A DNA stretch of 64,000 nt from Dyella sp. 2HG41-7 (GTDB lineage: Bacteria; Pseudomonadota; Gammaproteobacteria; Xanthomonadales; Rhodanobacteraceae). The notes beneath the pieces were generated by a model, which saw only the letters and a program-made list of their open reading frames with translations, did no database searches and had not been told where the DNA came from. Location: positions 2,542,001 to 2,606,000 of the forward strand of contig NZ_JAJEJV010000004.1 of the NCBI RefSeq assembly GCF_021390675.1, written 5' to 3'. Position numbers and translations under genes: made by a program. Positions within the stretch are counted from its first letter, which is position 1; each line of letters starts with the position of its first letter. This document shows, one piece after another, positions 40,273 through 60,261 of the stretch.

Positions 40273-40568
40273 AGACGTTTCTCACTGCCCGAAAAACGGC
40301 CATCGCTGGCGGATGGAGACCTTGACGTTATCGCTTTTCCCGCCCACACGCCACTGCATCGCTTTACACGACTCCTTAACGCCAACCCGGCAATTACTAA
40401 ACTAAATCCGCCATTAGCCCCTCGATATGCGCATTAACGGTGGATATTCACACCGGACTGCGTATCGATCGCTGTAAATACGAGGCGAGCGCGATGACCA
40501 ACCCTCGACGCGATATTCCAATTGTTCGCAATTTCGCTATAGTTTCGCTCGTAACAGGGGGTTTGAAG

Positions 40569-41096
40569 ATGTCTATGAACACTGGCCAGCCGCAGCCGGA
40601 AGGTCGCGGCAAACGCCGTGCGGGCCCGCAAGGCACGCAATTGCTGTCCGTTGCACAGATCCAACAACTCGCGCTGGACGACACGCCCGTTTCGAACGGT
40701 CGCGCGTCCACCCATGAGCCCGTACTCGAAGGCGTGCGCGGCGAGTTCAAAGGCCGCCGTTATTTGTTGCGCCAAGGGCGCCGCACCATCGGCCGCCGCG
40801 ACGACAACGACATCGTCATCGACGACCCCAGCGTTTCAGCGACGCATGCGTGGATCATCAATCAGCACGGCCACTATGTGCTGATGAATACGCTTTCCAC
40901 CAACGGCACCTTCGTCAACGACAAACGCATTCACGAGACGGTGCTTGCCCACGGCGATCGCGTGCGATTCGGTCAGACCGAATTTGCGTTTCTCACGCGC
41001 GAATACCGCTCGCAGTACATCCGGCGCTACTTGTACGGCATCGTTACGCTGTTAGGCGTGGCCGCGATCGCCGGGTTGATATGGTGGTGGTTCTAA
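40569..41096 (+). CDS. FHA-domain protein with C-terminal membrane anchor
   Basis: 175 residues from the ATG preceded by a G-rich AGGGGG; the frame extends upstream without support. The FHA domain spans about 63-142 and holds the phosphothreonine-binding residues: GR at 75-76, S90 with H93, and NG at 112-113. One helix at about 155-174 anchors the C-terminus. It lies 10 bases before the Ser/Thr kinase gene, so it is very likely a phospho-target or recruiting partner of that kinase. Confidence 0.88.
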   Translation: MSMNTGQPQPEGRGKRRAGPQGTQLLSVAQIQQLALDDTPVSNGRASTHEPVLEGVRGEFKGRRYLLRQGRRTIGRRDDNDIVIDDPSVSATHAWIINQHGHYVLMNTLSTNGTFVNDKRIHETVLAHGDRVRFGQTEFAFLTREYRSQYIRRYLYGIVTLLGVAAIAGLIWWWF

Positions 41097-41106
41097 CCGT
41101 ACGCGC

Positions 41107-44452: not shown

Positions 44453-45625
44453 ATGCAATACCCCATGCTTTTTTTATGTGCCATCGCTGTGTTGTCCTCT
44501 GCAGCAGCCATGATTCTGCTTTACCACCACGCAGAATCGATCGGTCTCGTCGACAAACCCGATGAGCGCAAACGCCATGTCGGAAACATTCCGTTGATCG
44601 GAGGTCTTTCCGCGTTCTTCGGCGTCATCGTCAGCATGTGTTTCGAAGGACAGTCGCTCCTGTTTACGAATGCATTGCTCGGCACGGGCGCCGTGCTCGC
44701 GCTGACCGGCGCGCTCGACGATCGCTTCGACTTGAGCGTGCGTGCGCGACTGCTTGTGCAGACAGCCGCCGTACTCACCATGATTTATCTCACCGGCGTA
44801 TACGTGCATACGCTCGGTCATCTCTTCGGTTACAACCTCGAACTCGGCATGTTTGGCATTCCGGTCACGCTGATCGCGGTGATCGGCCTGCTCAACGCCT
44901 TCAACATGATGGACGGCATCGACGGCTTGGCCGGCATGCTGACTCTGGTAAGTATCGGCGCGATCAGCGTGTTCCAAGGCATCTCGCAATGGCACAGCAT
45001 CATTCTTCTCTTGTTGCTCGCCGCCGCGTTGCTGCCGGATCTTGCGGCCAACCTCGATCTGATCGGTCGCAAGGTGTTCTTGGGCGATGCGGGAAGCGTC
45101 ATGGTCGGCTACTTCTTGGCGTGGACGCTCATTCATATCAGCCAACAGGCGCAACCGAATCTATCGACCGTGGATGTGCTCTGGTGCGTTGCACTGCCTG
45201 TGCTCGATACATTGTCGGTGATGGTGCGGCGCATGCGCGAAGGCAAGTCGCCGTTCAAGCCCGATCGCGGCCATATTCATCACATCATGATGGATGCTGG
45301 CTTCGGACCGCATACCACGTTGGTGCTGTTAGTCGGCCTCGCGGTTTCCTTGGTCTTTATGGGCACGCTTACGCGTCATCTGGCGCCGGGAAGCAACCTG
45401 CTTACGTTCGTGGCGCTCTCGATCATCTATATCGCCCTAGTGGGTCGCATCTATCGCGCTCAACGGGCACGCAAAGCCTCTGCAGCTGCTACGGCGCCAG
45501 CGCTTAAGCCGATGATGCAACCGCCGCAAATGGTCGCTCAATTGAATGCTTCCGTCGTCGGCGGCAGCTACAAAGAAGATGACGAGAAGACTCAGCGCAA
45601 GGCTGCGGGGTCGTCCAAACAATGA
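44453..45625 (+). CDS. WecA-like polyprenyl-phosphate sugar-1-phosphate transferase
   Basis: 390 residues with about eleven helices. Motifs of the MraY/WecA family: KPDERKRHVGNIPLIGG, GALDDRFDL, NAFNMMDGIDGL, FLGDAGS and RGHIHH. It should load the first sugar-1-phosphate, probably GlcNAc or a related amino sugar, onto undecaprenyl phosphate and so start the repeat unit. It is the first gene of the plus-strand EPS operon and has a GGGAGA ribosome site. The last 50 residues are hydrophilic and not conserved in the family. Confidence 0.92.
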   Translation: MQYPMLFLCAIAVLSSAAAMILLYHHAESIGLVDKPDERKRHVGNIPLIGGLSAFFGVIVSMCFEGQSLLFTNALLGTGAVLALTGALDDRFDLSVRARLLVQTAAVLTMIYLTGVYVHTLGHLFGYNLELGMFGIPVTLIAVIGLLNAFNMMDGIDGLAGMLTLVSIGAISVFQGISQWHSIILLLLLAAALLPDLAANLDLIGRKVFLGDAGSVMVGYFLAWTLIHISQQAQPNLSTVDVLWCVALPVLDTLSVMVRRMREGKSPFKPDRGHIHHIMMDAGFGPHTTLVLLVGLAVSLVFMGTLTRHLAPGSNLLTFVALSIIYIALVGRIYRAQRARKASAAATAPALKPMMQPPQMVAQLNASVVGGSYKEDDEKTQRKAAGSSKQ

Positions 45626-46599
45626 TGCGTTTCACAAGGCGGCGCGGCAAATACCCGGGAAGCAAACGCATGGTTTCCATAGATCGCCAGAAACAACCAC
45701 AAACGACGGTGCCTCCCATCTACACCGTCGCATCGTCGGCGCCGCATCGTCTCGATGAATCGCGGCAAGGCCACACAGCGCCGGTGAGCGTCGTCGTTCC
45801 TTGCTATCGGTGTGTCGACACCATCGAAGGCGCAGTCGCCTCGGTCGCCGCACAACAAGTGTTGCCTGCAGAAGTATTGCTCGTCGATGACGGAAGTCCC
45901 GACGATACCTTGAAGCGTTTGCATGAAGTCGCATCCCGCTATGCACCCGGTTGGGTCAAGGTCATTGCGCTAGCGCGCAATGCGGGCCCATCTGCGGCGC
46001 GCAACAAGGGCTGGGAAAAAGCCAGTCAACCGTGGATTGCGTTTCTCGATGCCGACGACAGCTGGCATCCGGAAAAGTTGGCGTTGCAGATGGACGCGAT
46101 CGAAGAAGATTCTCAAATCGCTTTGATCGCGCACGACATGAACGTCCAATCGCGAACTGCGCCAGCGCCGACGCTGCACTACCCGCTGAACGTCCGCGTG
46201 TTTCCCAATCATCTGATGATGCTGCGCAGCCCGTTTCCAACAGCGTCCATCATCCTTCGCCGCGATCTCCCGTTCCGTTTTGACGAACGGCGCAGACGCG
46301 CGGAGGACTTCATGCTCTGGGCGCAGATCCTGCTCAACGGCTATCGCTGCGCCAAGATCAATCAAATCCTCGCTTCATGGCATAAACCGCCTTTCGGCGC
46401 CGGCGGACTCAGTGGCGACCTGGCCGCGATGTTCGAGGCGGCGAACGACGTTCGCAAAACGCTCCATGAACAAGGCCTACTTAGTTGGTGGCAATGGAAA
46501 ATCATGGATGTTTTCAGCCTGATTCGCTATGCGCGTCGCCGTGCGTTGACGTTCAAAAGACGTCATGCCGGCTTATTTTTCGCCAGACACAATGCCTGA
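45622..46599 (+). CDS. Family 2 glycosyltransferase
   Basis: 325 residues. GT-A fold with VSVVVPCYR at the start, LLVDDGSPDDT, and the metal-binding DADD in IAFLDADDSWHPEK. The start overlaps the previous stop (ATGA); a second ATG at 45670 has a better ribosome site and may be the true one. It adds a sugar to the lipid-linked repeat unit on the cytoplasmic face. The donor sugar cannot be told. Confidence 0.9.
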   Translation: MMRFTRRRGKYPGSKRMVSIDRQKQPQTTVPPIYTVASSAPHRLDESRQGHTAPVSVVVPCYRCVDTIEGAVASVAAQQVLPAEVLLVDDGSPDDTLKRLHEVASRYAPGWVKVIALARNAGPSAARNKGWEKASQPWIAFLDADDSWHPEKLALQMDAIEEDSQIALIAHDMNVQSRTAPAPTLHYPLNVRVFPNHLMMLRSPFPTASIILRRDLPFRFDERRRRAEDFMLWAQILLNGYRCAKINQILASWHKPPFGAGGLSGDLAAMFEAANDVRKTLHEQGLLSWWQWKIMDVFSLIRYARRRALTFKRRHAGLFFARHNA

Positions 46600-46611: not shown

Positions 46612-47667
46612 ATGAACACCGTGACACCGTACGTCGAATATTCCCGCCCATCGAGCATCACCACCAATGCTCGGTCGATGCTGAGCCTGATGCTGATTGT
46701 AGCGGTGTGCCTCTTTGTGGACATCGTGGTCGGCAGCCGCAGCATCGATGTGGGTACCGACACCTATGTCTATGCCGGTTTCTTCCACGAAATTCGCGGC
46801 GGCCCGATCAGCACGCGTTTTGAGCCGGGCTTCCTGTTGATTACTCGCGTGCTGAGCCTCAGCGGCTTCAGCGTCGAGGCGTATCAGTCGATCCTGTTCG
46901 GCATCCTGCTTTTGATGGCGGCGATCGCATCGCGCAAGTACTTCGACTATCTAGGCAGCACCCGCGGCTATCTGACGTTCCTCGTCGCATGCTTGATGTT
47001 CCTGCTTATATCGCCGATGTTCGTGAATGCGTCGATCAACGCGGTTCGACAAGGACTCGCGGCGCTTCCCGTATTTACGGCGCTGCTGGCGTTTCATCAA
47101 CGGCAATGGCGCTCGTTCTTTATCTACGGCGTTATCGCGACGAGCTTCCACTATTCCTCGCTCCTCTATCTCGCGTTCGCGCCGTTGTTGTTGGTCAATC
47201 TGAAGCTGCTGCGCATCGCGGCAATCGTAGCTTTTATCGCCTACTGCACCGGCGTGACCCAGATCGTGGTGCGCGCGGTGGCTCCCTTCATCTACAACGC
47301 GGTGATGGATTACAGCCTCGGCGCCAAATACAAATCCGGCGTCCGTATCGACTTCGCCGTGTTTTCAATCTTCTGGTACGCACTTCCGTTCATGCTGAAC
47401 AGCATCGTGCGCAAGCCCTATAGCACGCGCATCAAAGACAGCACGGCCGTGTACCTTGTGATGCTCCTGCCCTTCTTCGTACTGGGCTGGGGCAACTTCT
47501 CCAACCGCTACCTTTTGTCGTCTTACTTGGCCGCGTCGATGATGGTCGCCGCCATCTTCTTCCACAGCCGCATATCGATACTGCGCAACCCCATATTACT
47601 GCGTGGCGGCTTCATTATTTCCAGCGTCGTCTTCTTCTATTACGTAGCTAACCAGGTGATTGTATGA
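46612..47667 (+). CDS. EpsG/Wzy-like polysaccharide polymerase
   Basis: 351 residues, about nine helices. Family blocks: VGTDTYVYAGFF, FEPGFLLITRVLS, and NAVRQGLAALPV. It should join flipped repeat units on the periplasmic side. The stop overlaps the start of the first asparagine-synthetase-like gene (ATGA), so they are translationally coupled. Confidence 0.88.
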   Translation: MNTVTPYVEYSRPSSITTNARSMLSLMLIVAVCLFVDIVVGSRSIDVGTDTYVYAGFFHEIRGGPISTRFEPGFLLITRVLSLSGFSVEAYQSILFGILLLMAAIASRKYFDYLGSTRGYLTFLVACLMFLLISPMFVNASINAVRQGLAALPVFTALLAFHQRQWRSFFIYGVIATSFHYSSLLYLAFAPLLLVNLKLLRIAAIVAFIAYCTGVTQIVVRAVAPFIYNAVMDYSLGAKYKSGVRIDFAVFSIFWYALPFMLNSIVRKPYSTRIKDSTAVYLVMLLPFFVLGWGNFSNRYLLSSYLAASMMVAAIFFHSRISILRNPILLRGGFIISSVVFFYYVANQVIV

Positions 47668-49157
47668 GTGCGTCGCTCAGTGAGTGCCGGGATGCGCCTA
47701 TTGAAGCTGTAAAGCGTATTCAAATTAATACCTCGCCGAACGACGGCGAGGTGGATTTCTCGTCGGTCAGCGACTGCCATCCCGACGCATCGACGTTCGA
47801 TCTCGTATCCCTTGCAGATATTTTGCGGAACGCGTTCGTCTATCCTCCGCACACCATCTATCGTGACGTGAAAATCGCGGCGACGGGTTTCGATCCTGCG
47901 CAGGACATGCACGAAAACCCGATTTTTCACTTCCAGTTTCAGTCCGCCCTGGCGGAATCGCGCCCGCCAGCCGACGCCATCGACACCGACACGCTGGTCA
48001 GCACCTACCATCAATTGCTGTGCGACGCGGTAGCGCGCACGACGGCTGGCATCAAGTCGCCGTGGCTATTGCAGAGCGGCGGCAAAGATTCGACATCGAT
48101 GGCGATTGCGCTCGCCGACGTTCGCCCGGATACCACCTGCCTGACGTATCTCGGCGGCAATGAAGAAAACGAAGTGGCATCGGCGCGATTCGTCGCGCAC
48201 CAGCTCGGCCTTCGTCATGAAGCGTTGGTATGCGATCCAGGCCGCGCATACGATCGCTACCTGGCGATATTGCCGCGCATGCCGTTGTTGTCGGCCGATT
48301 TCGCTGCTTTGTCGTATGTGGACCTGGCGACCGAAGTAAGCCTGCAACGTGGCGACGGCATCATCGACGCGCTCGGGTCGGATCAGTATTTTGGCGTTCC
48401 GCTGCATCGGCAAGACCGCATCCTCGCGCTATTGGCGCGCAATCTTCGCGTGCCGCAGAGTTTGTTCAAGTCTCGCTTGATCAATCGCAGCTTCAAACTC
48501 TGTTTTGCGCTATCGACGCTGCAGATGGGCGAATTCGAGCGCTATTTCCCAGGCTCGCGTTTTACGGACTCGGAGGTCGACGCGCTGTTCGGGTGGCGCG
48601 TTTCCAACTATTCGCGCCAGCGGATGGAGACGTTCCACAACGACATCGTTTCTGCCGCATCGGCGGAAGCCGTGCGACGCATTTCGTTGGTGGTCGGTGA
48701 ATCCGCCCATTTGGCCAAGGGCATGTATGCGACGCAAGCGATGCACCTGCGGCTTGCCTATCCGTATTGCGACAAGCAATTCCGCGACTGGATCTTCCAC
48801 AGCATTCCGGACGATCAGCTGATCGGGCCAGGTGGCCTCAACAAAGTTGTGATGCGCCAATATATCGCCAAGCGCTTTCAGCAGCTTCCTTACGTTCAGG
48901 CCAAAGGTTGTTTCCGCTTCGATCTGCGCGGCCTCGCCAGACAGCGATTCGATCAGGTTCATGCATTCTCGCTTCAGGCGCAGTCGTTGCTGCCTGGGGC
49001 GCCGCGGTGGCTGGAAACGCACCGCAACAGTCTCGACAACAAGTATTTCGCTTCGAAATTCTATCTGCTGGCCATGATCCTTCCGTGGCTGCTCGACCGC
49101 CTGCACGCTACCGCAACGGCTCGAAAAGATGTCATCGACGAGCACGCCGCCTTATGA
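47664..49157 (+). CDS. Glutaminase-less asparagine-synthetase-like protein 1
   Basis: 497 residues. Residues about 135-450 form the ATP-PPase synthetase domain with the PP-loop SGGKDSTS at 138-145 and a second conserved block, DALGSDQYFG. The normal asparagine synthetase starts with a roughly 190-residue Ntn glutaminase having Cys at position 2. Here only about 45 residues precede the linker (LADILRNAFVYPPHTIYRDV), and Cys is absent. A conserved stretch RIQINTSP is shared with the next gene. It should adenylate a carboxylate and join it to an amine, using ammonia or another nucleophile. In this context it may amidate a sugar acid of the EPS; that is inference. Confidence 0.8.
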   Translation: MSASLSECRDAPIEAVKRIQINTSPNDGEVDFSSVSDCHPDASTFDLVSLADILRNAFVYPPHTIYRDVKIAATGFDPAQDMHENPIFHFQFQSALAESRPPADAIDTDTLVSTYHQLLCDAVARTTAGIKSPWLLQSGGKDSTSMAIALADVRPDTTCLTYLGGNEENEVASARFVAHQLGLRHEALVCDPGRAYDRYLAILPRMPLLSADFAALSYVDLATEVSLQRGDGIIDALGSDQYFGVPLHRQDRILALLARNLRVPQSLFKSRLINRSFKLCFALSTLQMGEFERYFPGSRFTDSEVDALFGWRVSNYSRQRMETFHNDIVSAASAEAVRRISLVVGESAHLAKGMYATQAMHLRLAYPYCDKQFRDWIFHSIPDDQLIGPGGLNKVVMRQYIAKRFQQLPYVQAKGCFRFDLRGLARQRFDQVHAFSLQAQSLLPGAPRWLETHRNSLDNKYFASKFYLLAMILPWLLDRLHATATARKDVIDEHAAL

Positions 49158-49346
49158 CCGAAAGACCAAGATCCGGGCGAAAACGTGTCATGCAGACCGT
49201 GCACTGTTGCTTCCACGCGAATGCAGCCACGAAATCGCCGACGAATCACATCATTACAAGCTGTTGCGCAATTCGTGGTTGAAGCACAAAAGCTTTATGG
49301 CCGCTTGCGCTAACACCTTCTGCCGAACAACGCACTTGGTGATTTC

Positions 49347-50834
49347 ATGACTTCCGCCATACTGCCCAATAAAATTCGACATACGTTTGCTCGATCGCGT
49401 ATTCAGGTCAATACGTCTCCTTATCAGGAGCTGGACTTCTCTCCACTCGAGGAGATGGCGGATGTCGAAGCGCCGCTCGATCTCGTATCGATCGCCGACC
49501 TGCTGAGAAACTCCTTCGTCTACCCACCGCACTCCGTGTATCGGAATGTGAAAGTGGCCGCGTCGGGTTTCAACCCCACGCAAGACATGTATGAGAATCC
49601 TCAATTTCAATATCCGTTTCAGTCGGCGCTCGCAGCATCGCGCCCGACCGTCGCGTCCGTCGATGGCGACGCGTTGTTGGAGACTTATCACCGACTGCTG
49701 TGCGATGCGGTAAGAAATACCACCGCCAAAATAAAATCGCCTTGGTTGCTGCAAAGCGGCGGCAAGGATTCCACGTCGATGGCGATCGCCGTCGCCGATG
49801 TCAGGCCCGATACCAATTGCTTGACGTATCTTGGCGGCCGCGAAGAAAACGAAGTCGCCTCGGCACGACACGTCGCGCGCCAACTGGGGCTTCGTCATGA
49901 AGCACTGGTATGCCATCCAGGCCGAGCCTACGACCGGTATTTGGCGATGGTTCCGCGGATGCCGTTGCTGACCGCGGACTTTGCTTTGCTGTCTTACGCA
50001 GACTTGGCCACTGAGATTCGACTGCATCACGGCGATGGCGTGATCGACGCCCTGGGAGCCGATCAGTATTTCGGAACGCCGCTACACAGCCGGGAACGGA
50101 TTCTGGCGCTGTTCGCACGCGGCCTTCGTCTTCCGCAAAGCATCTTCAAATCGCGCGTCGTCAGCCGCAGCTTCAAGCTTTGTTATGCACTGGCCACGTT
50201 GCAAATGAGCGAGTTCGAACGCTACTTCCCCGGCTCCCGTTTCAGCGACAGCGAAGTCGACGAATTGTTCGGGTGGCAAGTTTCGACCTGCTCGCGTCAG
50301 CGCATCGAAACTTTCCGCAACGAAATCGCCACAGCCGATTCGTCGGAAGCGGTTCGTCGCATCGCCTTTATCATCAACGAAGCCGCCAATATGGCGAAGG
50401 GCATGTACGCCACCAAAGCCATGTCTTTGCGACTGGTTTTCCCCTATTGCAACGAACAGCTTCGCGACTGGATTTTCAATCATGTTCCCAACGAGCTGTT
50501 GATCGGTTCGGGCGGCGTCAACAAGGTGTTGATGCGGCAGCACATCGCCAAATACTTCGACGATTTGCCATACGTCAAGGCAAAGGGCTCTTTCCGGTTC
50601 GATCTGCGCGGTCTTGCGCAACAACGCTACGAACAAGTCCACGACTTCGCCAGGCAGGCGCAATCGTTGTTGCCCGGCGCGCTGCCGTGGCTCGAATCCC
50701 ATCGCAATCATCTTTACAACAAGTATTTCGCATCGAAGTTTTACCTGCTCGCCATCACGCTCCCCTGGCTGTTGAACCGCATGCACGGCTCGGCAAAGTC
50801 GAGCGTGCTGACCCACGTGGAGCGCATTACATGA
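49347..50834 (+). CDS. Glutaminase-less asparagine-synthetase-like protein 2
   Basis: 495 residues, an evident tandem paralogue of the previous gene: PP-loop SGGKDSTS at 137-144, DALGADQYFG, and RIQVNTSP near the N-terminus. Long segments are identical, such as VADVRPDTNCLTYLGG against LADVRPDTTCLTYLGG. It too lacks the Ntn domain. Both starts sit in a GGTGATTNNATGA context, which in the first case is the polymerase 3' end. Its own stop overlaps the start of the first beta-helix gene (ATGA). Two copies suggest two substrates or a heterodimer. Confidence 0.8.
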   Translation: MTSAILPNKIRHTFARSRIQVNTSPYQELDFSPLEEMADVEAPLDLVSIADLLRNSFVYPPHSVYRNVKVAASGFNPTQDMYENPQFQYPFQSALAASRPTVASVDGDALLETYHRLLCDAVRNTTAKIKSPWLLQSGGKDSTSMAIAVADVRPDTNCLTYLGGREENEVASARHVARQLGLRHEALVCHPGRAYDRYLAMVPRMPLLTADFALLSYADLATEIRLHHGDGVIDALGADQYFGTPLHSRERILALFARGLRLPQSIFKSRVVSRSFKLCYALATLQMSEFERYFPGSRFSDSEVDELFGWQVSTCSRQRIETFRNEIATADSSEAVRRIAFIINEAANMAKGMYATKAMSLRLVFPYCNEQLRDWIFNHVPNELLIGSGGVNKVLMRQHIAKYFDDLPYVKAKGSFRFDLRGLAQQRYEQVHDFARQAQSLLPGALPWLESHRNHLYNKYFASKFYLLAITLPWLLNRMHGSAKSSVLTHVERIT

Positions 50835-51973
50835 AAAGCAATTCTTCTTTCGATCTTGTTTCTTCCGAACGCCGCAACTTTCTCCGTTGCTCGCTGTGGG
50901 CGTTGCCGCCTATCGCCCTGTCGGCCTGGGCGCTGCCACGAACCACATGGGGATGGCAGAGCACGAGCGGGCCAGTGATCAATGTTCGCGACAAAGGCGC
51001 CAAGGGCGACGGCACGACCGACGATACGTCCGCCTTCAAGGCGGCCATCGAAGCGCTGCCAAGCAGCGGCGGCACCGTCTCGGTGCCACCGGGCAATTAC
51101 ATTATCGACGCCATGCGCGCGATCAACCTGCGTTCGAACATGCTTTTCCAGTTGGCGCCCACGGCGACGCTTACGGCGATTCCCAACAACTCGCCGCGTT
51201 CGCACGTGATCAAGGTTTGGAACTGCACCAATGTGCGCATCACCGGCGGACGCATTGTCGGCGAGCGCAATGCACACAGCGGCGTCGGCGGCGAATGGGG
51301 CTATGGGCTCAATATCCAAGCTTCCAATCATGTGTATGTGTCGAACATGCATATCTCCGATTGCTGGGGCGACGGCATCTGGATCGGCGCGATCGGTCCT
51401 GACCATAACGCCACGCCGTCGACCGATGTGACGATCGACAACGTCATCTCCATCAACAATCGTCGGCAGGGCCTTTCCATCGGACCAGTCGATGGCGTGG
51501 TGATCAAAAATTCCACATTCAGCGGCAGCAACGGCACCAAGCCCGAGTCGGGTATCGATATCGAACCGCAGGCGCAGGGCTTTGCGCGCAATATCACGAT
51601 CGACACATGCACGATTTCCAACAATCACGGCACCGGCATGGAAATCCATTACAACGTCAGCGGCGTCACGATCAAGAACTGCACGTTCCAAGGCAACGCC
51701 GGTTACGGCCTGATGACGGCGGACAACCCGTCGCAACTTACGATCACTAACAACACCTTTACCGGAAACGGACTGGTCGGCTTGACCATTGCGGGCCAGA
51801 CCAGCCACGTACAAGCGACCGGCAATACCCTGACCGGCAATAGCACGCGTTACGTTCATAACGCCGCCAAGGCGCTTACGTCTTCGTCCAGCGGAAATCC
51901 TGCGCAACACAAGACCGATCTGCGCGTGGATCCCGGCACCAGCGACGTCAATCTATCGAACAACAAGTTCTAG
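50831..51973 (+). CDS. Tat-type secreted right-handed beta-helix protein 1
   Basis: 380 residues from the ATG coupled to the previous gene. The N-terminus has a twin-arginine motif, RRNFLR at 14-19, followed by a hydrophobic stretch ending in ALP. The rest is the pectate-lyase-3 fold: DKGAKGDGTTDDTSAFKAA, then many parallel beta-helix coils (NNTFTGNGLVGLTIAG). This fold is used by lyases, epimerases and depolymerases of polysaccharides. It may cut or modify the EPS in the periplasm after folding in the cytoplasm. Catalytic residues could not be identified. Confidence 0.85.
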   Translation: MKSNSSFDLVSSERRNFLRCSLWALPPIALSAWALPRTTWGWQSTSGPVINVRDKGAKGDGTTDDTSAFKAAIEALPSSGGTVSVPPGNYIIDAMRAINLRSNMLFQLAPTATLTAIPNNSPRSHVIKVWNCTNVRITGGRIVGERNAHSGVGGEWGYGLNIQASNHVYVSNMHISDCWGDGIWIGAIGPDHNATPSTDVTIDNVISINNRRQGLSIGPVDGVVIKNSTFSGSNGTKPESGIDIEPQAQGFARNITIDTCTISNNHGTGMEIHYNVSGVTIKNCTFQGNAGYGLMTADNPSQLTITNNTFTGNGLVGLTIAGQTSHVQATGNTLTGNSTRYVHNAAKALTSSSSGNPAQHKTDLRVDPGTSDVNLSNNKF

Positions 51974-52008: not shown

Positions 52009-53184
52009 ATGAAATTTGCTTTCTTCGCCAACACTGATTGGTATCTCTATAACTTCCGTCTTTCGACGGCGCGCCGCCTGCTGTCCGAAGGGCACGAAGT
52101 CGTCATGATCTCGCCGCCTGGAAACTTTGGCAGCCGCTTTGCGCAACACGGTTGCCGCTGGGTTCCATTGTCTACGATGGATCGGGCGAGCCTGAATCCT
52201 GCGCGCGAAGCCGTCACCTTGCACCAATTGATTCGCGTGCTGCGCGACGAAAAGCCCGATCTTCTGCACAATTTCACGTTGAAGTGCGCGGTGTACGGAG
52301 CGATCGCTTCGCGCATCGTTCGCGTACCGGCCACCGTCAATGCGGTGGCCGGCATGGGCTACGTATTTACCAGTCATACTACCAAGGCCCGTGTACTGCG
52401 ACCGATCGTCAAGTCGTTGCTCCGCCTTGCGCTCAATAACCCGAATTCGTTGCTGATTTTGCAGAACCCCGACGATGCGGAAGCGTTCGAATCGGCCGGA
52501 CTGACATCCCCAGATCGCATTCGCCTTATTCGCAGTTCGGGCGTCAACACGACACGCTTTCAACCCAAGCCTCGAACACCAGGTCATACGGAACGACTCC
52601 GCGTTATTCTTGCCGCGCGACTTCTTCGCGAGAAAGGCATCGAGGAATTCGCCGAAGCAGCCAACCTGCTTCGACAATGGGGACGCGACGTCGAATTTCT
52701 GCTCGCAGGCACACCGGACGAAGGCAATCCGCATTCGATCCAAAAAACGCAAGTGCAACAGTGGTCGGATGAAGGCCTTATTCAATGGCTTGGTCATGTC
52801 GACGACATGCCTGCCTTGTTGAGCACCGCACATGTGATGGCTTTGCCGAGCTATTACCGCGAAGGCGTTCCGAAATCCTTGATCGAAGGCGCCGCTTCCG
52901 GACTCGCGATCGTTACGACCAATCTCCCCGGTTGCCGCGAAGTCGTCACGCAACATGGCGTCGACGGCTTGCATGTCGAACCACGCAATGCACGCGCGCT
53001 CGCGCATTGCATCGTGCAGCTGGACGACGATCGCGAGTTGCTGCGGAAGCTCGCGCATCAAGCGCGTTTGCGCGCGACGACCGATTTCGACGAACGGATC
53101 GTCATCCAGAAAACGCTCGACGTCTACGCCGAATTGCTAGACCCGACCGACGCCATTTACGCGGGCTTTCGCACCACGCTCTAG
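52009..53184 (+). CDS. Family 4 glycosyltransferase
   Basis: 391 residues. GT-B fold: MKFAFFANTDWYLYNFRLST at the start, the nucleotide-binding SSGVNTTRF block, the catalytic EGVPKSLIEGAASGLAIVTT signature (EX7E) and LPGCREVV. It should use a nucleotide sugar for the repeat unit. It lies 35 bases after the first beta-helix gene. Together with the GT2 this gives only two transferases beyond the initiating enzyme, so the repeat unit may be a trisaccharide unless others are encoded elsewhere. Confidence 0.9.
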   Translation: MKFAFFANTDWYLYNFRLSTARRLLSEGHEVVMISPPGNFGSRFAQHGCRWVPLSTMDRASLNPAREAVTLHQLIRVLRDEKPDLLHNFTLKCAVYGAIASRIVRVPATVNAVAGMGYVFTSHTTKARVLRPIVKSLLRLALNNPNSLLILQNPDDAEAFESAGLTSPDRIRLIRSSGVNTTRFQPKPRTPGHTERLRVILAARLLREKGIEEFAEAANLLRQWGRDVEFLLAGTPDEGNPHSIQKTQVQQWSDEGLIQWLGHVDDMPALLSTAHVMALPSYYREGVPKSLIEGAASGLAIVTTNLPGCREVVTQHGVDGLHVEPRNARALAHCIVQLDDDRELLRKLAHQARLRATTDFDERIVIQKTLDVYAELLDPTDAIYAGFRTTL

Positions 53185-53395
53185 CGCACCCGCGCGCGAC
53201 GACGTCGATCTGAAATAGACGTCCAAACGACCAAGTCGTTCATGATTGTGAAGATTTTCACGTCTCGTTTCAGCAATTAGCGAGACGCGAAAACCTCGTG
53301 AAATTGCGAGCAAAAACACGTTTTCACATTTGCTATTTCACACATTGATGACGCACCTTAGCCTCGCAGTTCACACAAACGAGGCGGTACCAAAC
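53185..53395. promoter_or_regulatory. Promoter region of the second beta-helix gene
   Basis: 211 bases holding a near-perfect CRP/Clp box (53247-53262), a stem of CGTCTCG and CGAGACG (53261-53267 / 53281-53287) overlapping its right edge, and several TTTCAC/GTGAAA repeats. The AT-rich end leads to a GAGGCGG ribosome site. Confidence 0.6.
53247..53262. promoter_or_regulatory. Putative CRP/Clp binding site
   Basis: TGTGAAGATTTTCACG matches TGTGA-N6-TCACA with only the last base different. Clp, a CRP-family regulator that senses c-di-GMP in xanthomonads, uses this motif to control polysaccharide genes. The site lies about 134 bases before the GTG of the second beta-helix gene. Confidence 0.6.
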
Positions 53396-54598
53396 GTGAA
53401 AAACAGGTCTGCGCTGAAAGGCGCACAGGGGAACCTACTTCAAGGCTTCGACGCTGCGACGTCGAACAACATTAACTTAACGAAAGCGCGCCGTAAAAAG
53501 CTTCTGACCGGCATCGTGGCATCGTTGGCGCTGTCGATGGCGGCTCTGCCCGCCTCCGCGACCAACTGGTGGAATCCGACGCCGGTCATTACGGTGGGCA
53601 GCACGGTCATCAACGTGCAGAGCATGGGCGCGACGGGCAATGGCGTGACCGACGACACCGCCGCCTTCCAGGCCGCGATCAACGCCCTGCCCTCTACCGG
53701 CGGCGTGATCTCCGTGCCGGCAGGCACGTACATGATCAATGCACTGGTCGGCATCAAGCTGCGCTCCAATATGCGACTGAGCATGCAGAGCACGGCGACG
53801 CTGAAAGCCATTCCGAACAGCGCCGATCGCTCCTGGGTGATCAAGGCCTGGAATGTGAACAACGTCGAGATCGCCGGCGGAAACATTGTCGGTGAGCGCG
53901 TTGGCCACACGGGCACCACGGGTCAATGGGGCTACTGCGTCAACATCGAAGGTTCGAGCACGGTCTACGTGCACGACATCAACCTGTCCAACAGCTGGGG
54001 CGACGGCATTCTGGTCGGCGGCACCGGTTCGGGCGCGACGGTTGTGCCTTCGACGAATGTCACGCTCAACAACGTCAATGCCACCAACAATCGTCGTCAA
54101 GGTTTGACGATTGCGCCGTCGACCCAGCTGTATGTGGTCAACAGCAGCTTCACCAGCTCCAACGGCATTTCGCCCCAGGCCGGTATCGATATCGAGCCGG
54201 ATATCCAGGGCAACGTGAATCATGTCCGCCTGGAAAACGACACGCTGTCGAACAACGTCGGCAACGGTCTTGAAATTCACGCCAACGTGAACGACGTGAC
54301 GCTGACCGGCTCGACCGCGCAGAACAATAAGGGCTACGGCGCCTTCACCAGCGGCTCGACCAACCTGACGATCACCAACAACAACCTGATCCAGAACTAC
54401 CTGTTCGGTGTGGATATTGCGGGCGTCAGCGACAGCACGATTCTCGAGAACAACACCATCACCTACAACGGCGATGCTTGGTTCTACGCGCACAACGTGT
54501 CGATCTTCACTGAAGGCTGGGTGCCGCGCGACATCACGATCGCCACCACGGCGACGAATGTCACGCAGTCCGGTAACACGATTTCTCCGATGAAGTGA
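53396..54598 (+). CDS. Secreted right-handed beta-helix protein 2
   Basis: About 400 residues from a GTG start (VKNRSALKGAQGN) with GAGGCGG at good spacing; an ATG at 53348 has no ribosome site. A long hydrophilic N-region precedes the signal helix LLTGIVASLALSMAALPASA. The remainder is the same fold as the product of 50831-51973: ATGNGVTDDTAAFQAAINALP, NNRRQGLTI and many conserved coil residues, so the two are paralogues. It has no clear Tat box, so it probably uses Sec. It may modify the exported polymer. It has its own promoter region and terminator. Confidence 0.85.
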   Translation: MKNRSALKGAQGNLLQGFDAATSNNINLTKARRKKLLTGIVASLALSMAALPASATNWWNPTPVITVGSTVINVQSMGATGNGVTDDTAAFQAAINALPSTGGVISVPAGTYMINALVGIKLRSNMRLSMQSTATLKAIPNSADRSWVIKAWNVNNVEIAGGNIVGERVGHTGTTGQWGYCVNIEGSSTVYVHDINLSNSWGDGILVGGTGSGATVVPSTNVTLNNVNATNNRRQGLTIAPSTQLYVVNSSFTSSNGISPQAGIDIEPDIQGNVNHVRLENDTLSNNVGNGLEIHANVNDVTLTGSTAQNNKGYGAFTSGSTNLTITNNNLIQNYLFGVDIAGVSDSTILENNTITYNGDAWFYAHNVSIFTEGWVPRDITIATTATNVTQSGNTISPMK

Positions 54599-54679: not shown

Positions 54680-56017
54680 TTAAGTCCGCGCTTTTGCGTG
54701 ATACTTGCGCAAGCCGATAACCAGCCCCAAAAGCAGCGAGCCTTCGCCGATCACCGTAGCGATCGCAGCGCCAAATTCGTGGTACCTGGGAATGAGCAGC
54801 GCGTTGAACGCGACCACGACCACCGCACTCAGCCCCATCACCACGACGCGATAACGCATATGCGTTTCGTTGAGTAGCGCAGAAGCGACACCCGTCGAGA
54901 GAAAGCGCACGGGAACGCAAATCGCCAAGACGGTCAACACTGGCACCACCGCCTGGAACTTCGCACCGAAAATAATCGGCACGATCCACGGCGAAACCAC
55001 GACAAGGGCAAGCCCGATCATCACGCCTGCGGCAAGCATGGCGATATTGGCGTGCTTATAAACCTTCCAAAATTTCTCGGTGTCGTGCGCCGCCCAGCGA
55101 TGCAGTTTCGATAAGAGAAATTTCTGATAGACCGTCGCGGGAATCAGATAAATAGCAGTCATGATGCCCAAGGCAATGCCAAAAATACCCGCCTGAGCAT
55201 TACCGCCCAAATACTTCAACATTACCGTGCTGACCTGGAAGAAAATCGGATAAAGCGTTGCCTCCAGGCCATACGCCCATGCCTGCGACCACAAGCGCGC
55301 CACGCTCGGCGATCGCTCCAGCACCAGATCAGCGGGTCGAGGTCCGTGCCCGTACAAATGAATGCCGCCGCGCATCATCGCGAGCAACCGCGGCAACGCT
55401 ATAAAAATGGCGCCCACCGCGATCGCGCTATATCCGACTGCGACCATGCGCCCGTCCAACGTCGGCAGAAGCATCAACGCTGCGGTAATCACAAACCGAG
55501 TGCCTGGCGTCATCAATTGCCAAAGCGCCATGCCGACATGGCGTTCTTCCAGACGCAACTGACTGCTGATCAGATTCACGGCCAGCAAGCCGAGAACCAC
55601 CGGCGTCAACAACAGCAAAATAGGTTTTGCATCAGGTGTCGCGCCGACGAATGTCCACGAGATAACAAGCACCAGAGTGAGCGCTGTGCTGCCGGCGATA
55701 AAGCGCAACGAAGGCTGCAGCCAGCGATTGCCCTGCCATCCTTCGACGCCGTAAACCTGCAGCCAGTACTGCGGCAAGCCGAATCCCGACAGCGGCGCCA
55801 CCATCGTGATGGTGGCGAGCGAGGATGCAAACAGTCCGTACTCAGAGGGCCCAAGTTCTCGCGCAAGCAAGGCCTGCGTGAGAAACGCCAATCCCGCACC
55901 CAATGCGGTGCAGATCCACAATATAGAGATGGCGCCTAACGCGTTACGCCATCCTTGTGGCAGTCGCCCTAACAAGGGAATCGCAGATGTCGAAGAGTTC
56001 ACCCAGCCGATATCCAA
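54680..56017 (-). CDS. wzx: Wzx-type polysaccharide flippase
   Basis: 445 residues, about twelve to fourteen hydrophobic helices of the MOP/RfbX family (ALGAGLAFLTQALLARELGPSEYGLFAS at the start). It should flip lipid-linked repeat units across the inner membrane for the polymerase. The frame opens with TTG at 56017; a GTG at 56002 is equally possible and neither has a strong ribosome site. It is the last gene of the wzb-wzc-wzx operon. Confidence 0.88.
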   Translation of the reverse strand: MDIGWVNSSTSAIPLLGRLPQGWRNALGAISILWICTALGAGLAFLTQALLARELGPSEYGLFASSLATITMVAPLSGFGLPQYWLQVYGVEGWQGNRWLQPSLRFIAGSTALTLVLVISWTFVGATPDAKPILLLLTPVVLGLLAVNLISSQLRLEERHVGMALWQLMTPGTRFVITAALMLLPTLDGRMVAVGYSAIAVGAIFIALPRLLAMMRGGIHLYGHGPRPADLVLERSPSVARLWSQAWAYGLEATLYPIFFQVSTVMLKYLGGNAQAGIFGIALGIMTAIYLIPATVYQKFLLSKLHRWAAHDTEKFWKVYKHANIAMLAAGVMIGLALVVVSPWIVPIIFGAKFQAVVPVLTVLAICVPVRFLSTGVASALLNETHMRYRVVVMGLSAVVVVAFNALLIPRYHEFGAAIATVIGEGSLLLGLVIGLRKYHAKART

Positions 56018-56095: not shown

Positions 56096-58306
56096 TTAGA
56101 CCTTGGAGGTCGGCGCATAGGCGTAATAAGCATAGGCGTAGTAGCCCGCGGCGCGTTTCTCAACAAGGTTGAAGATCGCTCCTTTGATGGGCACGCCGTT
56201 TTGCTCAAGACGCTGTTTGGCCAACGCGATCTCGCGCACCTGATTGATGCCGAAACGCACCACCAACAAGCTCGTACCCACGTGATTGCCGATAACGGCC
56301 GCATCGGTCACCGCAAGCACCGGCGGTGTATCGATGATGATGAGGTCGTAGCGCGGCCGCAGCGATTCGAGCAGCGTGTTGAAGTTTTTGTGCATCAACA
56401 GTTCGGACGGATTCGGCGGAATCTTGCCGCGCGAGATAAACATCAGCTGACTTACACCGTTTATGGTGCGAATGGCCTGGCTGGCGTCGATCTGACCGGA
56501 GATCAGTTCCGACAGACCGTTCTCAGGACGACCGCCGGTCGCGCGATGGAGCAGACCTTTGCGCATGTCGGCATCGATCAGCAACACGCGCTGACCTGCC
56601 TGCGCCATCACCACGGCAAGGTTCGCCGCGACAAAGCTCTTACCTGCGCCCGGGCTCGCACTGGAAATCATCAGGACGTTGTTCTTCGTCTCCATGCGCG
56701 CAAAGTGCAGACTCGTGCGCAGGCTACGCAACGCTTCCGTCGCCATATCCGCCGGCGAATTCACCGCCAGCAAATGCTGACGCCCACTGGCGGAATGGCG
56801 ATGACCGATGCGAAGACCACTCTTGCGCTGCATGTCGCTCAGCGGAATGGACACATACACCGGCAGTCCAAGGCGCTCGATGACAACTGGATCTTCGATG
56901 CCGCGGCTCAACAGCTGACGCAGATAGATAAACGCCAGCGCGATCAGGAAACCCAACACGGCGCCGCCCGGAATCACCCAAATCGGGCGCGGCCACCAGG
57001 GCTTGGCGAGATTCACGGCCGATTGGTCGATCACGCGAACGTTGCCCACCGTACCGGCACGCGCGATATCAAGTTGCTGCGCTTGATTGAGCAGATTCGT
57101 GTACGTCTGGCTCGTCACCGTGACGTCGCGGCTCAACTTGAGCAGCTCTTGTTGCGTATTCGGCAGCTGACCGATCTTGTGGTCCAGCGCGCCCTTTTCA
57201 CCTTCCAACTGACTGATCTGTTTCTGCAGCGCCTTGTATTCCGGATGCTCCGGCGTAAAGCGCTTTTGCACGTCGGCCATCTGCAAATGCAGCTGCTCGA
57301 GGTTGGTATCGATCGTGACATTCTGATCGAGCAAAGACTGCGTCTGCATGCTGATGTCGACGGAGTGCTCGCGCAATTGGAACTGATTCAACGCTTGCGT
57401 CGCGCCTTCCAATTGTTGCTTCACTTTCGGCAACTGCTCGCGCACGAACTTCAAGCTGTTCGCAGCTTCCGCAGCGCTACGGTCGACGTTCTGACGAACG
57501 TACAACGACGTGACCTGATCCAGGAGATTGGTCGCAAGCATCGGATCGAGGTTGTTGTACGTCAGCGCGATGATGCCCGAATCTTTGCCCTGCTCTTCGG
57601 CATCGATATCCTTCTGCAGCTTCGCAATGGTATCCATGTGTGAATGGCGTACCACGCGGAAGCGCGCACCCGGATTGGCCTGCATGCTCTTCACGTCGAC
57701 GTTGACGCCGTTCTGCGTAACCAACTGACCGACGTGTCCGTTTACGAGTATGTTTCCGTCCGGATCCTGTAACGTGTAAGCGCCGTTGTCGCCCGCGATA
57801 AGCAGCAGCTTTTCGTCCAGCAGATCGGCCGGCACGTCAAGCTGATTGACGTTCACCTGCGTGCCGCCCCAGTCGTAACGACTCAGGCCGAACAGCGGCG
57901 ATGCCAACTGTCCCGGATGATCGGCGGCGAACTCGCGCGCCAGGAAGGAGCCGAAAAGCGGGAGGCGTTTCGGCGTCGCTTCGATATCCAACCGCAAATT
58001 CTCGACCGCCTGACCGACCACTGCACGGGAAGTCAGGAGCTGAATTTCGGTAACGGCCTGCGAAGTCGAAATGCCCAGTGTCTGCGACAGATCGTCCATG
58101 CCCGGCAAGGTCGGCGCTTTCTGCTCGACTTGCACCGAGGCGCTGGCTTGATAAATCGGCGGCGCAAGCACGGCGTACAAAATGCCGACCAGGAAGAACA
58201 CGATGGTTATCCCGAAAATACGCCACTTGTTATCGAGAAGCGTGCCTAGCAATGCCCGCAGGTCTATATCGTCGTCGCGTGTTGCGAAGGTCTGCTTGGT
58301 TGTCAT
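56096..58306 (-). CDS. wzc: Wzc-type tyrosine autokinase and chain-length regulator
   Basis: 736 residues. N-terminal and central membrane helices flank a periplasmic coiled-coil Wzz domain (RYRVR-like, QLREHSVDISMQTQSLLDQN). The C-terminal BY-kinase has Walker A ASPGAGKSFVAANL, a Walker A' with LIDADMR and the tyrosine-rich tail GYYAYAYYAYAP. It controls polymerisation and export by cyclic phosphorylation of the tail, which Wzb reverses. A GAGGAG ribosome site precedes the ATG. It is the second gene of the minus-strand operon. Confidence 0.93.
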   Translation of the reverse strand: MTTKQTFATRDDDIDLRALLGTLLDNKWRIFGITIVFFLVGILYAVLAPPIYQASASVQVEQKAPTLPGMDDLSQTLGISTSQAVTEIQLLTSRAVVGQAVENLRLDIEATPKRLPLFGSFLAREFAADHPGQLASPLFGLSRYDWGGTQVNVNQLDVPADLLDEKLLLIAGDNGAYTLQDPDGNILVNGHVGQLVTQNGVNVDVKSMQANPGARFRVVRHSHMDTIAKLQKDIDAEEQGKDSGIIALTYNNLDPMLATNLLDQVTSLYVRQNVDRSAAEAANSLKFVREQLPKVKQQLEGATQALNQFQLREHSVDISMQTQSLLDQNVTIDTNLEQLHLQMADVQKRFTPEHPEYKALQKQISQLEGEKGALDHKIGQLPNTQQELLKLSRDVTVTSQTYTNLLNQAQQLDIARAGTVGNVRVIDQSAVNLAKPWWPRPIWVIPGGAVLGFLIALAFIYLRQLLSRGIEDPVVIERLGLPVYVSIPLSDMQRKSGLRIGHRHSASGRQHLLAVNSPADMATEALRSLRTSLHFARMETKNNVLMISSASPGAGKSFVAANLAVVMAQAGQRVLLIDADMRKGLLHRATGGRPENGLSELISGQIDASQAIRTINGVSQLMFISRGKIPPNPSELLMHKNFNTLLESLRPRYDLIIIDTPPVLAVTDAAVIGNHVGTSLLVVRFGINQVREIALAKQRLEQNGVPIKGAIFNLVEKRAAGYYAYAYYAYAPTSKV

Positions 58307-58334: not shown

Positions 58335-58769
58335 TCATAAATAACGAATCCAACTATCAACGCCTCGCTCGATCATGTCGTACACGTGATCGAACACTTG
58401 GCGCGTTCTCCGATAGGGGTCAGGAACATCTTCGGCTTCGCGCCACTTGTCCAGAAGAAACAACTTGCCGCTGGATTCGGGTGCCATCCTCGATGCGGCC
58501 GCCAAGTGTTCGCGTTCCATCACCAGCACAAGATCGGCTTCGCGCAGCATCGACGGCGACAACTGACGCGCACGATGATCCGCCGCATCGATGCCGCGCT
58601 CTTTCAAGATGCGCATCGCGTTGTCTTCCATGGGATGACCCACGGCTGCACTCAACCCGGCGCTGCTGACGCGTATGTCGCGATCCTTCAGTCGATGTCG
58701 CAACAGGAACTCCGCCGTAGGACTCCGGCAGATGTTTCCGATGCAGACGATCAAGACATGTTTGAACAC
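58335..58769 (-). CDS. wzb: Low-molecular-weight protein tyrosine phosphatase (Wzb)
   Basis: 144 residues starting with GTG (MFKHVLIVCIGNICRS); GGAG lies 11 bases upstream. The P-loop C9-X5-R15 is followed by SPTAE, and the general-acid loop is DPYR. It should dephosphorylate the tyrosine tail of Wzc, as in capsule systems. It is the first gene of the wzb-wzc-wzx operon, and a 22-base palindrome lies about 31 bases upstream. Confidence 0.92.
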   Translation of the reverse strand: MFKHVLIVCIGNICRSPTAEFLLRHRLKDRDIRVSSAGLSAAVGHPMEDNAMRILKERGIDAADHRARQLSPSMLREADLVLVMEREHLAAASRMAPESSGKLFLLDKWREAEDVPDPYRRTRQVFDHVYDMIERGVDSWIRYL

Positions 58770-59181
58770 GTAGGCGATTACTCCATAGGTTTGCTTTCAC
58801 GCAAAGCGACGTCGCTTTGCGCAGTTTTTCCGCGAATTTCTTTTCTAGTACCTCTTTCCGTACCTGCATGATTCGTGAACAAATGCTTCGCCGCTTATCG
58901 ACGCAGGTTGAAGTTATAGAACGTCATCCGTCAAAACCGCATGGATTTTTCAAAATGTTCCAATCGACAAGACATTTTCTACACACACGTGACGAAAAAA
59001 TCTCACGGCTGACTATGGTTCATTTACGACGCACTAACGGTGGAGGGCGCTTTAATTAATTAAACAAACGTAGCCGATTCGAAATTTTTTCTGCTTTTTT
59101 ATATTCAGCATTCATCGCCCTTTGTTAGGTGTCACTGTTAGATGCCAATGGCAATACATCCCAACGCCATGTGGAGTTCAC
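58770..59181. promoter_or_regulatory. Divergent promoter region between wzb and wza
   Basis: 412 bases without a gene. It holds a perfect 22-base palindrome near wzb and an AT-rich tract with long T runs (59085-59110) before wza, where a GGAG site precedes the ATG. No clear -35/-10 pair was found. Confidence 0.65.
58800..58821. promoter_or_regulatory. Perfect 22-base palindrome upstream of wzb
   Basis: CGCAAAGCGAC is followed immediately by its exact reverse complement GTCGCTTTGCG. With no loop it is better as an operator than as a hairpin. It lies between wzb and wza and is followed by CAGTTTTT on the plus strand. Confidence 0.75.
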
Positions 59182-60261
59182 ATGAAAACATTGTTTGTTG
59201 TGGCGGCAGTTTCGATAACTCTTGTTCTGAACGGATGCGCCGCCGTCCCCGGGCAGCACATGTCCATGAACAGCGCAGAGAAAGGCCATGTTCAAATGGT
59301 CGATATCACGCCGGATTGGTTGGCAAGCCAGCCCATGGACCAGCCCAAGCCCATTCCGCAGGAATTGCTGAGCTATCAGCCCGAGTCGTATCGGATCGGT
59401 CCCGGCGACATGCTGTACATCACCGTCTGGGATCACCCAGAGTTAACGGCTCCTGCTGGCTCGCAACAGCAAGCCAGCGCCAACAGTCGTTTGGTGCGCT
59501 CTGACGGCACGCTGTTCTATCCCTACGTTGGCACGGTGAAAGCCGCGGGCATGACCGTGGATCAGCTGCGCCAGGAGCTGACCAGCAGGCTTACTTCGTT
59601 CGTTCCGCATCCGCAGGTCGACGTGGCGGTTACCAGTTACGGCAGTCAGCTCATCACCCTTCAGGGTGCGTTTAGCAAGAGCGATCCGCAACAGGCCACC
59701 ACGATTCCGTTGACGCTCGCGCAAGCGATCGGCTCAGCCGGCATCGATCTTCCGCACGCGGATCTCTCGGACCTGGTGCTGACACGCGACGGTCAGGACT
59801 ATCACCTCGATCTGAACACGATGAGCAAGGCGGCCGAGCAACGCATCTATCTGAAGCCTGGCGATCGCTTGTTCCTGGCCTACAACGACAACAAAGAGAT
59901 CTATGTAATGGGCGAAGTGTTGCGCCCACAGGCTCTCAATTTCAGAACGGACGATTTGACGCTTACGCAGGCACTGGGTCGCGTCGGCGGACTGAATCCG
60001 ATCACGTCGAGCAGCAAGTCGGTGTACATCATTCGCGGCATCAAAGATCTTGCGCATAACCCCGCGACGGTTTATCACCTCAATGCACGTTCTCCAGCCG
60101 CCTTTGCGGTGGCGGATAACTTCCATGTGCAAGCGGGCGACGTGGTATGGGTCGGCGCAGCAGCGATCACGCAATGGAGCCGCTTCCTAGGCCAGCTGGT
60201 TCCGCTGACCAATCTGGTCGGCACGGCAGCGATCGCCAGCGGCAATACCAGCGGTCTTTGA
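59182..60261 (+). CDS. wza: Wza-type outer-membrane polysaccharide export lipoprotein
   Basis: 359 residues from the ATG with a GGAG ribosome site; the frame extends 20 codons upstream without support. A lipobox, LNGC, follows the short signal. The export domain begins YRIGPGDMLYITVWDHPELT, followed by SLBB-like repeats (LQGAFSKSD; VMGEVLRPQ). It should form the octameric outer-membrane channel that works with Wzc. It is transcribed away from wzb-wzc-wzx. Confidence 0.92.
   Translation: MKTLFVVAAVSITLVLNGCAAVPGQHMSMNSAEKGHVQMVDITPDWLASQPMDQPKPIPQELLSYQPESYRIGPGDMLYITVWDHPELTAPAGSQQQASANSRLVRSDGTLFYPYVGTVKAAGMTVDQLRQELTSRLTSFVPHPQVDVAVTSYGSQLITLQGAFSKSDPQQATTIPLTLAQAIGSAGIDLPHADLSDLVLTRDGQDYHLDLNTMSKAAEQRIYLKPGDRLFLAYNDNKEIYVMGEVLRPQALNFRTDDLTLTQALGRVGGLNPITSSSKSVYIIRGIKDLAHNPATVYHLNARSPAAFAVADNFHVQAGDVVWVGAAAITQWSRFLGQLVPLTNLVGTAAIASGNTSGL

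Follow-up and report, generated by a model that had tools for sequence, protein, structure and literature searches.

The stretch of 64,000 nucleotides of Dyella sp. 2HG41-7 analysed here (the window; contig NZ_JAJEJV010000004.1, positions 2,542,001 to 2,606,000) contains a locus for the synthesis of an exopolysaccharide (EPS) in which two consecutive genes, copies A and B, code for homologues of asparagine synthetase (AS) that have no glutaminase. The initial annotation had read these two open reading frames (ORFs) as proteins keeping the ATP pyrophosphatase (ATP-PPase) half of asparagine synthetase, and both the coordinates and the Asn_synthase domain (PF00733) were confirmed (Table 1). The Pfam domain begins at residue 116 and scores 40.4 bits in copy A and 43.5 bits in copy B, at a cut-off of 21. 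The copies are 70% identical across 472 aligned positions and, by domain, motif and fold, they are members of the asparagine synthetase superfamily.

Absence of the glutaminase

By Pfam at E ≤ 0.1, a glutaminase family was found in neither copy. The stop-to-stop frames comprise 501 and 506 codons for copies A and B, and in two further members of the family (loci L062 and L080) the entire frame has 470 and 472 codons; frames of this length are so short that a glutaminase cannot hide upstream in frame. The genome also encodes two full-length AsnB-type proteins; in a profile comparison with these, the family aligned from residue 34 onward, with the end of their glutaminase domain and with their synthetase domain (hhalign, probability 92%, E 5.7e-7). 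Roughly 35-45 residues occupy the place of the ~165 expected for the glutaminase region, and the "about 45" of the initial annotation was a fair estimate. In an alignment of 67 of the 71 gene-called members this N-terminal segment has a conserved QI..SP....DFS stretch; the four rows omitted were L083 (cut), L060 (a near-duplicate) and two from L047 with uncertain starts. Pfam typing of representatives of the neighbouring gene groups, which covered a subset of the neighbours, did not reveal a separate gene for a partner glutaminase either.

For copies A and B, pairwise rates of nonsynonymous substitution (dN) of 0.18-0.23 stand against near-saturated synonymous rates (dS) of 1.6-1.9; over the 11 gene pairs compared, dN was 0.04-0.23 and dS 0.47-1.92. 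Both copies are therefore under purifying selection and are not chance ORFs. Together with the short frames this rules out a misassigned start of a full-length synthetase as well as a pseudogene, and the proteins form a coherent, defined family, as had been supposed from the two window sequences.

The start of copy A overlaps the stop of the polymerase gene and the end of copy B overlaps the start of the beta-helix gene, with ATGA at both junctions. This fits the proposed translational coupling with the genes on either side of the pair, but copies A and B are not coupled to each other because 189 bp (49158-49346) intervene. This spacer is poorly conserved in an alignment of six Dyella loci. 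By eye, the spacer of two other species (L036, L040) appears to hold an open frame that enters the start of copy B; the frame is broken in the window.

Table 1 Features of the EPS locus and of related loci (positions in the window unless a locus is named).
Feature	Position	Strand	Basis and remarks
AS-like ligase copy A, 497 aa	47664..49157	+	ORF; PF00733; model pLDDT 90.2; Dyella copy-A clade
N-terminal segment in place of the glutaminase, residues 1-46 of copy A	47664..47801	+	67-member alignment; hhalign start at residue 34
SGGKDST PP-loop of copy A, residues 138-144	48075..48095	+	invariant in 67/67 aligned members
AS-like ligase copy B, 495 aa	49347..50834	+	ORF; PF00733; Dyella copy-B clade
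WecA-type initiating sugar-phosphate transferase	44453..45625	+	PF00953; TIGR02380 275 bits, under cut-off 326
Family 2 glycosyltransferase (GT2)	45622..46599	+	PF00535
EpsG-type polymerase	46612..47667	+	PF14897, 108.5 bits; stop overlaps start of copy A
Beta-helix protein with RR-type N-terminus	50831..51973	+	PF13229, PF12708; model; overlaps end of copy B
GT4-type glycosyltransferase	52009..53184	+	PF13692, PF00534
Second beta-helix protein	53330..54598	+	PF13229; clusters with 50831-51973
Wzx-type flippase	54680..56017	-	PF01943
Wzc-type chain-length kinase	56096..58306	-	clusters with Wzc of L053
Low-molecular-weight phosphatase, Wzb-like	58335..58769	-	CIGNICRS motif read from sequence; LMWPc group in other loci
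Wza-type export lipoprotein	59122..60261	+	clusters with Poly_export/SLBB protein of L044
Second kynurenine 3-monooxygenase, upstream of stand-alone ligase	L007:10716-12218 (same genome, C4:2764718-2766217)
Tyrosinase-ligase loci	L073:2194-3639, L078:8487-9962, L085:8389-9900		flanking genes differ

ATP site and fold

The PP-loop SGGKDST and the residues D240, K394, R398 and K414 are invariant in all 67 aligned members, and the conserved Asp and Lys correspond to those of AsnB in the hhalign alignment. The position of the Glu in the GEGSDE motif of AsnB is held by Leu (55 members), Met (7), Ile (4) or Gln (1); this Glu we take to be catalytic in AsnB, and the roles of the other aligned AsnB residues are likewise presumed. 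Judged from these positions, the ATP half looks intact throughout the family and the acceptor side looks to depart from AsnB.

The AlphaFold2 model of copy A (pTM 0.90; pLDDT in Table 1) has TsnB9, AsnB, beta-lactam synthetase, human ASNS and carbapenam synthetase as its best matches among solved folds, with moderate TM-scores of 0.33-0.53. The structural argument rests on this comparison of folds, because a search of the PDB with a single sequence gave chance hits only and the family profile matched QueC only (E 0.0012). A search for a phage-defence role gave no PADLOC match for copy A or B at E ≤ 0.01, and for a phage origin of the ligase there was no PHROGs match for copy A.

A conserved EPS locus

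According to Pfam and clustering, an initiating transferase, a flippase, an EpsG-type polymerase, Wzc and Wza are all present in the window, which is a Wzx/Wzy-dependent EPS locus. Public genomes were scanned and yielded 50 loci with the ligase; with three stretches of the same genome and the window, 54 places were examined. Of these, 40 are EPS-type, defined by the presence of at least two of gene clusters 2, 3, 4, 5 and 6; of the other 14, 13 are stand-alone loci and one, L083, is a contig end with Wzc and a ligase fragment. The recurring gene set, typed by Pfam of the cluster representatives, consists of low-molecular-weight phosphatase, WecA-type transferase, Wzc, ligase, beta-helix protein, GT4, Wzx, a pyruvyl-transferase-like protein, GT2, EpsG, a DUF218 protein and Wza. 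In 38 of the 40 EPS-type loci a beta-helix gene comes immediately after a ligase gene, the exceptions (L041, L058) being located at a contig end. Among 61 relatives, strong matches to the ligase (E<1e-100), the beta-helix protein (E<1e-50) and EpsG (E<1e-100) fall into the identical ten genomes, eight of which lie among the 16 genomes of the genus Dyella; two more genomes have weak beta-helix matches alone. The placement of the pair inside an EPS operon is borne out by these data, and the tie to the locus extends to the family.

Genes were called with a codon-usage caller combined with clustering; starts were trimmed and the small phosphatase gene of the window was missed. A greedy longest-ORF calling gave false antisense genes and was replaced. 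Some features beside the recurring set were seen. In the window, FHA-like and Ser/Thr-kinase-like ORFs (40440-42822, judged from translations) lie just upstream of the EPS genes and are possibly regulatory. In L053 (3578-5917) a single gene joins the WecA-type transferase to a WecB-type epimerase, and the median cluster length of 771 aa suggests that such fusions are common in Lysobacteraceae. Five loci (L061, L069, L071, L080 and L081; cluster 17) have a short QueC-like PP-loop protein with a Pfam score below the cut-off, encoded on the opposite strand and, in four of the five, between the beta-helix genes of the EPS locus.

Distribution and copy number

Strong ligase matches were found in ten of the 61 relatives, Dyella sp. 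2HG41-7 included, with one to six per genome; six further relatives have weak matches only (best E 5.1e-7 to 6.9e-4). The 67-member profile matched 18 of 299 Xanthomonadales genomes at E ≤ 1e-50 and, across the phylum, 3 of 299 genomes at E ≤ 1e-15, all three of them Xanthomonadales. The hosts of the loci are Dyella, Rhodanobacter, Frateuria, Lysobacter, Luteimonas, Pseudoxanthomonas, Vulcaniibacterium and other Lysobacteraceae/Xanthomonadaceae. One further locus lies on a metagenome contig labelled Eremiobacteraeota, which is probably misbinned since its protein groups with Rhodanobacteraceae in the tree. Within the genomes scanned, the family is essentially confined to Xanthomonadales.

The initial annotation had treated the two paralogues as a unit, and this view had to be given up: the genome of Dyella sp. 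2HG41-7 contains five copies, three of them outside the EPS locus, and 26 of the 40 EPS-type loci hold one ligase gene, 11 hold two and three hold three. The 26 include Lysobacter sp. M2-1, in which two ligase copies are naturally fused to one protein of 992 aa (L052:8462-11440; the fused gene had escaped clustering and was assigned to the ligases manually in this count). In the tree, the first Dyella copies (A) form one clade (7 rows, support 99/94) and the second copies (B) another (12 rows, support 96/91) that also contains stand-alone copies, two of them from Dyella sp. 2HG41-7. The tandem copies of Lysobacteraceae (L065/L066, L054/L057, L055, L052) fall elsewhere, and the duplication at this position of the locus has therefore probably happened several times, some forks of the tree being weakly supported. 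The fusion would fit a joint action of two copies, and the single-copy loci indicate that pairing is not obligatory. Two acceptors or a heterodimer, both suggested before, would each be compatible with the separate A and B clades and the fusion.

The beta-helix partner

The model of the first beta-helix protein has a pLDDT of 88.7, and its top fold matches include AlgE4, AlgE6, an alginate epimerase/lyase and RbmB. Its fold is nearest to uronate epimerases and lyases. Because of this, and since RbmB cuts Vibrio polysaccharide (VPS) at a guluronic-acid derivative, a uronic acid is suggested for the polymer of this locus as well. Outside the window, the genome encodes two nucleotide-sugar dehydrogenases, one above the TviB cut-off (626 bits vs 592) and one that is UDP-glucose-dehydrogenase-like and below the equivalog cut-offs. 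An RR-type N-terminus was seen by eye in many members of the beta-helix family. Both beta-helix proteins of the window (50831-51973, 53330-54598) have a conserved middle that is common to crAss-like phage tail fibre (gp22) and phage tail-spike families.

Aromatic neighbours of stand-alone copies

One stand-alone ligase gene of Dyella sp. 2HG41-7 lies directly 3' of a gene whose product matches solved kynurenine 3-monooxygenases (KMOs) with up to 448 bits; in NCBIfam this protein has sub-threshold matches of the VioC type only. A KMO is present in 16 of 16 Dyella genomes and a second one in exactly five, with none in the other 11. Each of the five has a ligase copy 101 to 473 bp downstream of one of its KMO genes and in the same orientation. 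The KMOs of these five gene pairs make up a separate clade (100/100); the ligases next to them, sampled for four of the five genomes, likewise group in one clade (100/100), which also includes the ligase of L079, a locus that lacks the KMO. In three Lysobacteraceae loci a tyrosinase gene directly precedes a stand-alone ligase (Table 1). Such a tyrosinase is found in 6 of 299 Xanthomonadales genomes, three of the six have the ligase, and in one of those three the genes are adjacent; this link is weaker than that to KMO. All 13 stand-alone loci belong, by accession, to genomes that also carry an EPS-type locus.

Discussion

The analysis shows the domain composition and fold of the proteins, the conservation of their ATP-site residues, the family and the locus to which they belong, the co-occurrence of the locus genes and the selection on the copies. 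On this basis we propose that the family consists of glutaminase-less ATP-PPase ligases that are a constant part of one Wzx/Wzy-type EPS pathway and catalyse ATP-dependent amide formation on a carboxylate of an EPS sugar. We give this a probability of about 55%. In the cytoplasm, the ligase would adenylate a sugar unit at its carboxylate, most likely that of a uronic acid in a precursor linked to a nucleotide or a lipid, and an amine would then displace AMP to give the amide. As a glutaminase is lacking, the amine would be free ammonia or, with greater probability, a larger amine such as an amino acid; we lean towards an amino acid because KMO pairs with stand-alone copies. Each type of copy (A, B or stand-alone) would have its own amine or acceptor, and the substrate of the beta-helix partner would be the polymer after export. 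Everything beyond ATP binding is inferred: which carboxylate and which amine react, what product forms and in which compartment. Amidation on a uronate is favoured because of the AS-type fold, the invariant ATP-site residues, the adjacency of the beta-helix gene, the uronate-like fold of the partner and the UDP-sugar dehydrogenases of the genome. The carboxylate amidation in EPS proposed by the initial annotation survives as the best inference for a defined EPS family, but not for the tandem pair as a unit.

Several points weigh against this proposal. In the profile search, the best solved relative of the beta-helix family is a phage tail fibre domain (1.7e-45) that shares its conserved middle, and the mannuronan C5-epimerases (AlgE4, 1.5e-25) do not have this middle: the AlgE4 match spans residues 47-91 and 244-337 of the beta-helix profile and skips it. 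The DPHE stretch of AlgE4, a motif that we take to be catalytic in mannuronan C5-epimerase, is not kept in the alignment. A dehydrogenase for uronic acid formation was not found within the locus in the window, and the co-occurrence counts of the locus genes are dependent and partly reflect shared inheritance.

A further-reaching and doubtful version of the proposal is that the ligases decorate the EPS with amide-linked amino acids and that particular copies attach redox-active aromatics, in Dyella 3-hydroxykynurenine supplied by the second KMO and in Lysobacteraceae phenolic amines that an exported tyrosinase oxidises. If this were true, the slime would become cross-linked or hardened on oxidation, much as mussel glue sets or insect cuticle is tanned. 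An aromatic component would be unexpected in a bacterial matrix, and it is to such a component that the dedicated pair of KMO and ligase points.

Among the alternatives, two are improbable to the same degree. The ligase could amidate or cross-link a co-encoded exported protein, the beta-helix protein or the tyrosinase, before export, in the manner of lasso cyclases or of enzymes amidating ribosomally synthesised and post-translationally modified peptides. Overlap of ligase and beta-helix genes in many loci and the stand-alone copies behind tyrosinase in three loci are in line with this, and peptide-acting AS-like enzymes are described in the cited passages of PMC13060819. Against it, a conserved acceptor motif did not emerge in the partner, although no search was aimed at one, and several stand-alone copies have no adjoining exported protein. 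Alternatively, at least the stand-alone copies could make a free, secreted aromatic amide, for example from 3-hydroxykynurenine, with only an indirect link to EPS. Here the separate-clade KMO directly 5' of the ligase in five Dyella genomes speaks in favour, but all those genomes hold the EPS locus and the copies within it are left unexplained.

Somewhat less probable still is a chemistry of the WbpG/PseA type, in which the N-acyl group of a sugar is converted to an amidine, or another ATP-dependent sugar modification than carboxylate amidation. WbpG-like PP-loop ligases act on sugars and have no glutaminase of their own, which counts for this possibility, as does the QueC-like signal as the sole profile match in the PDB. 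Against it, the best structural matches are of the AS type over most of the length and a partner glutaminase was not recognised among the Pfam-typed neighbours. Ordinary asparagine supply is very improbable and comes last: the distant homology to AsnB amounts to 27.9 and 26.2 bits for glutamine-hydrolysing asparagine synthetase (TIGR01536), about a tenth of the cut-off of 267.1, the Cys2 glutaminase is absent, the genome already has two full-length AsnB-type proteins, and the patchy distribution is tied to the EPS locus, with the position of the catalytic Glu of AsnB lost.

Comparison with known systems

The AS superfamily is known, but its glutaminase-less, EPS-tied form appears to be a new variant, for which no description was among the matches listed in searches of the open-access literature. 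With AsnB (PDB 1ct9) the ligases share the fold of the synthetase domain, the PP-loop and the conserved Asp and Lys; they differ from it in the absence of the glutaminase, in the Leu, Met or Ile at the Glu position of 66 of 67 members and in the EPS context. Beta-lactam synthetase, carbapenam synthetase and TsnB9 use the AS-type fold for acceptors other than aspartate. Their structures are longer, judged from the target lengths, presumably with an N-terminal domain, and their genomic context is another one. Lasso cyclases are likewise AS-type enzymes with non-aspartate acceptors.

An AS-type protein encoded in a polysaccharide cluster is also known from the WbpS-type uronic-acid amidotransferases: according to the cited passages of PMC3684757, a WbpS-like full-length AS protein is encoded in an EPS cluster and its mutation altered colony morphology. 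These enzymes and the amidotransferase of the XrtA/PEP-CTERM system (TIGR03108) are glutamine-dependent and full-length, unlike the ligases of the window, which score 18.5 and 19.1 bits with TIGR03108 at a cut-off of 816.9. In this family, the chemistry of asparagine synthetase would operate apart from the glutaminase and in the service of a biofilm polymer. VPS is a parallel on the side of the product, a biofilm polymer with a guluronic-acid derivative amide-linked to glycine (PMC3901696, in the part cited) that the beta-helix lyase RbmB, one of the best fold matches of the partner, cuts at this residue (PMC11637428, likewise). The likeness is limited to the beta-helix partner; the cited VPS passages name no amide-forming enzyme. 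The family described here is a testable candidate, in another lineage, for the amide linkage of amino acids to polymers such as VPS.

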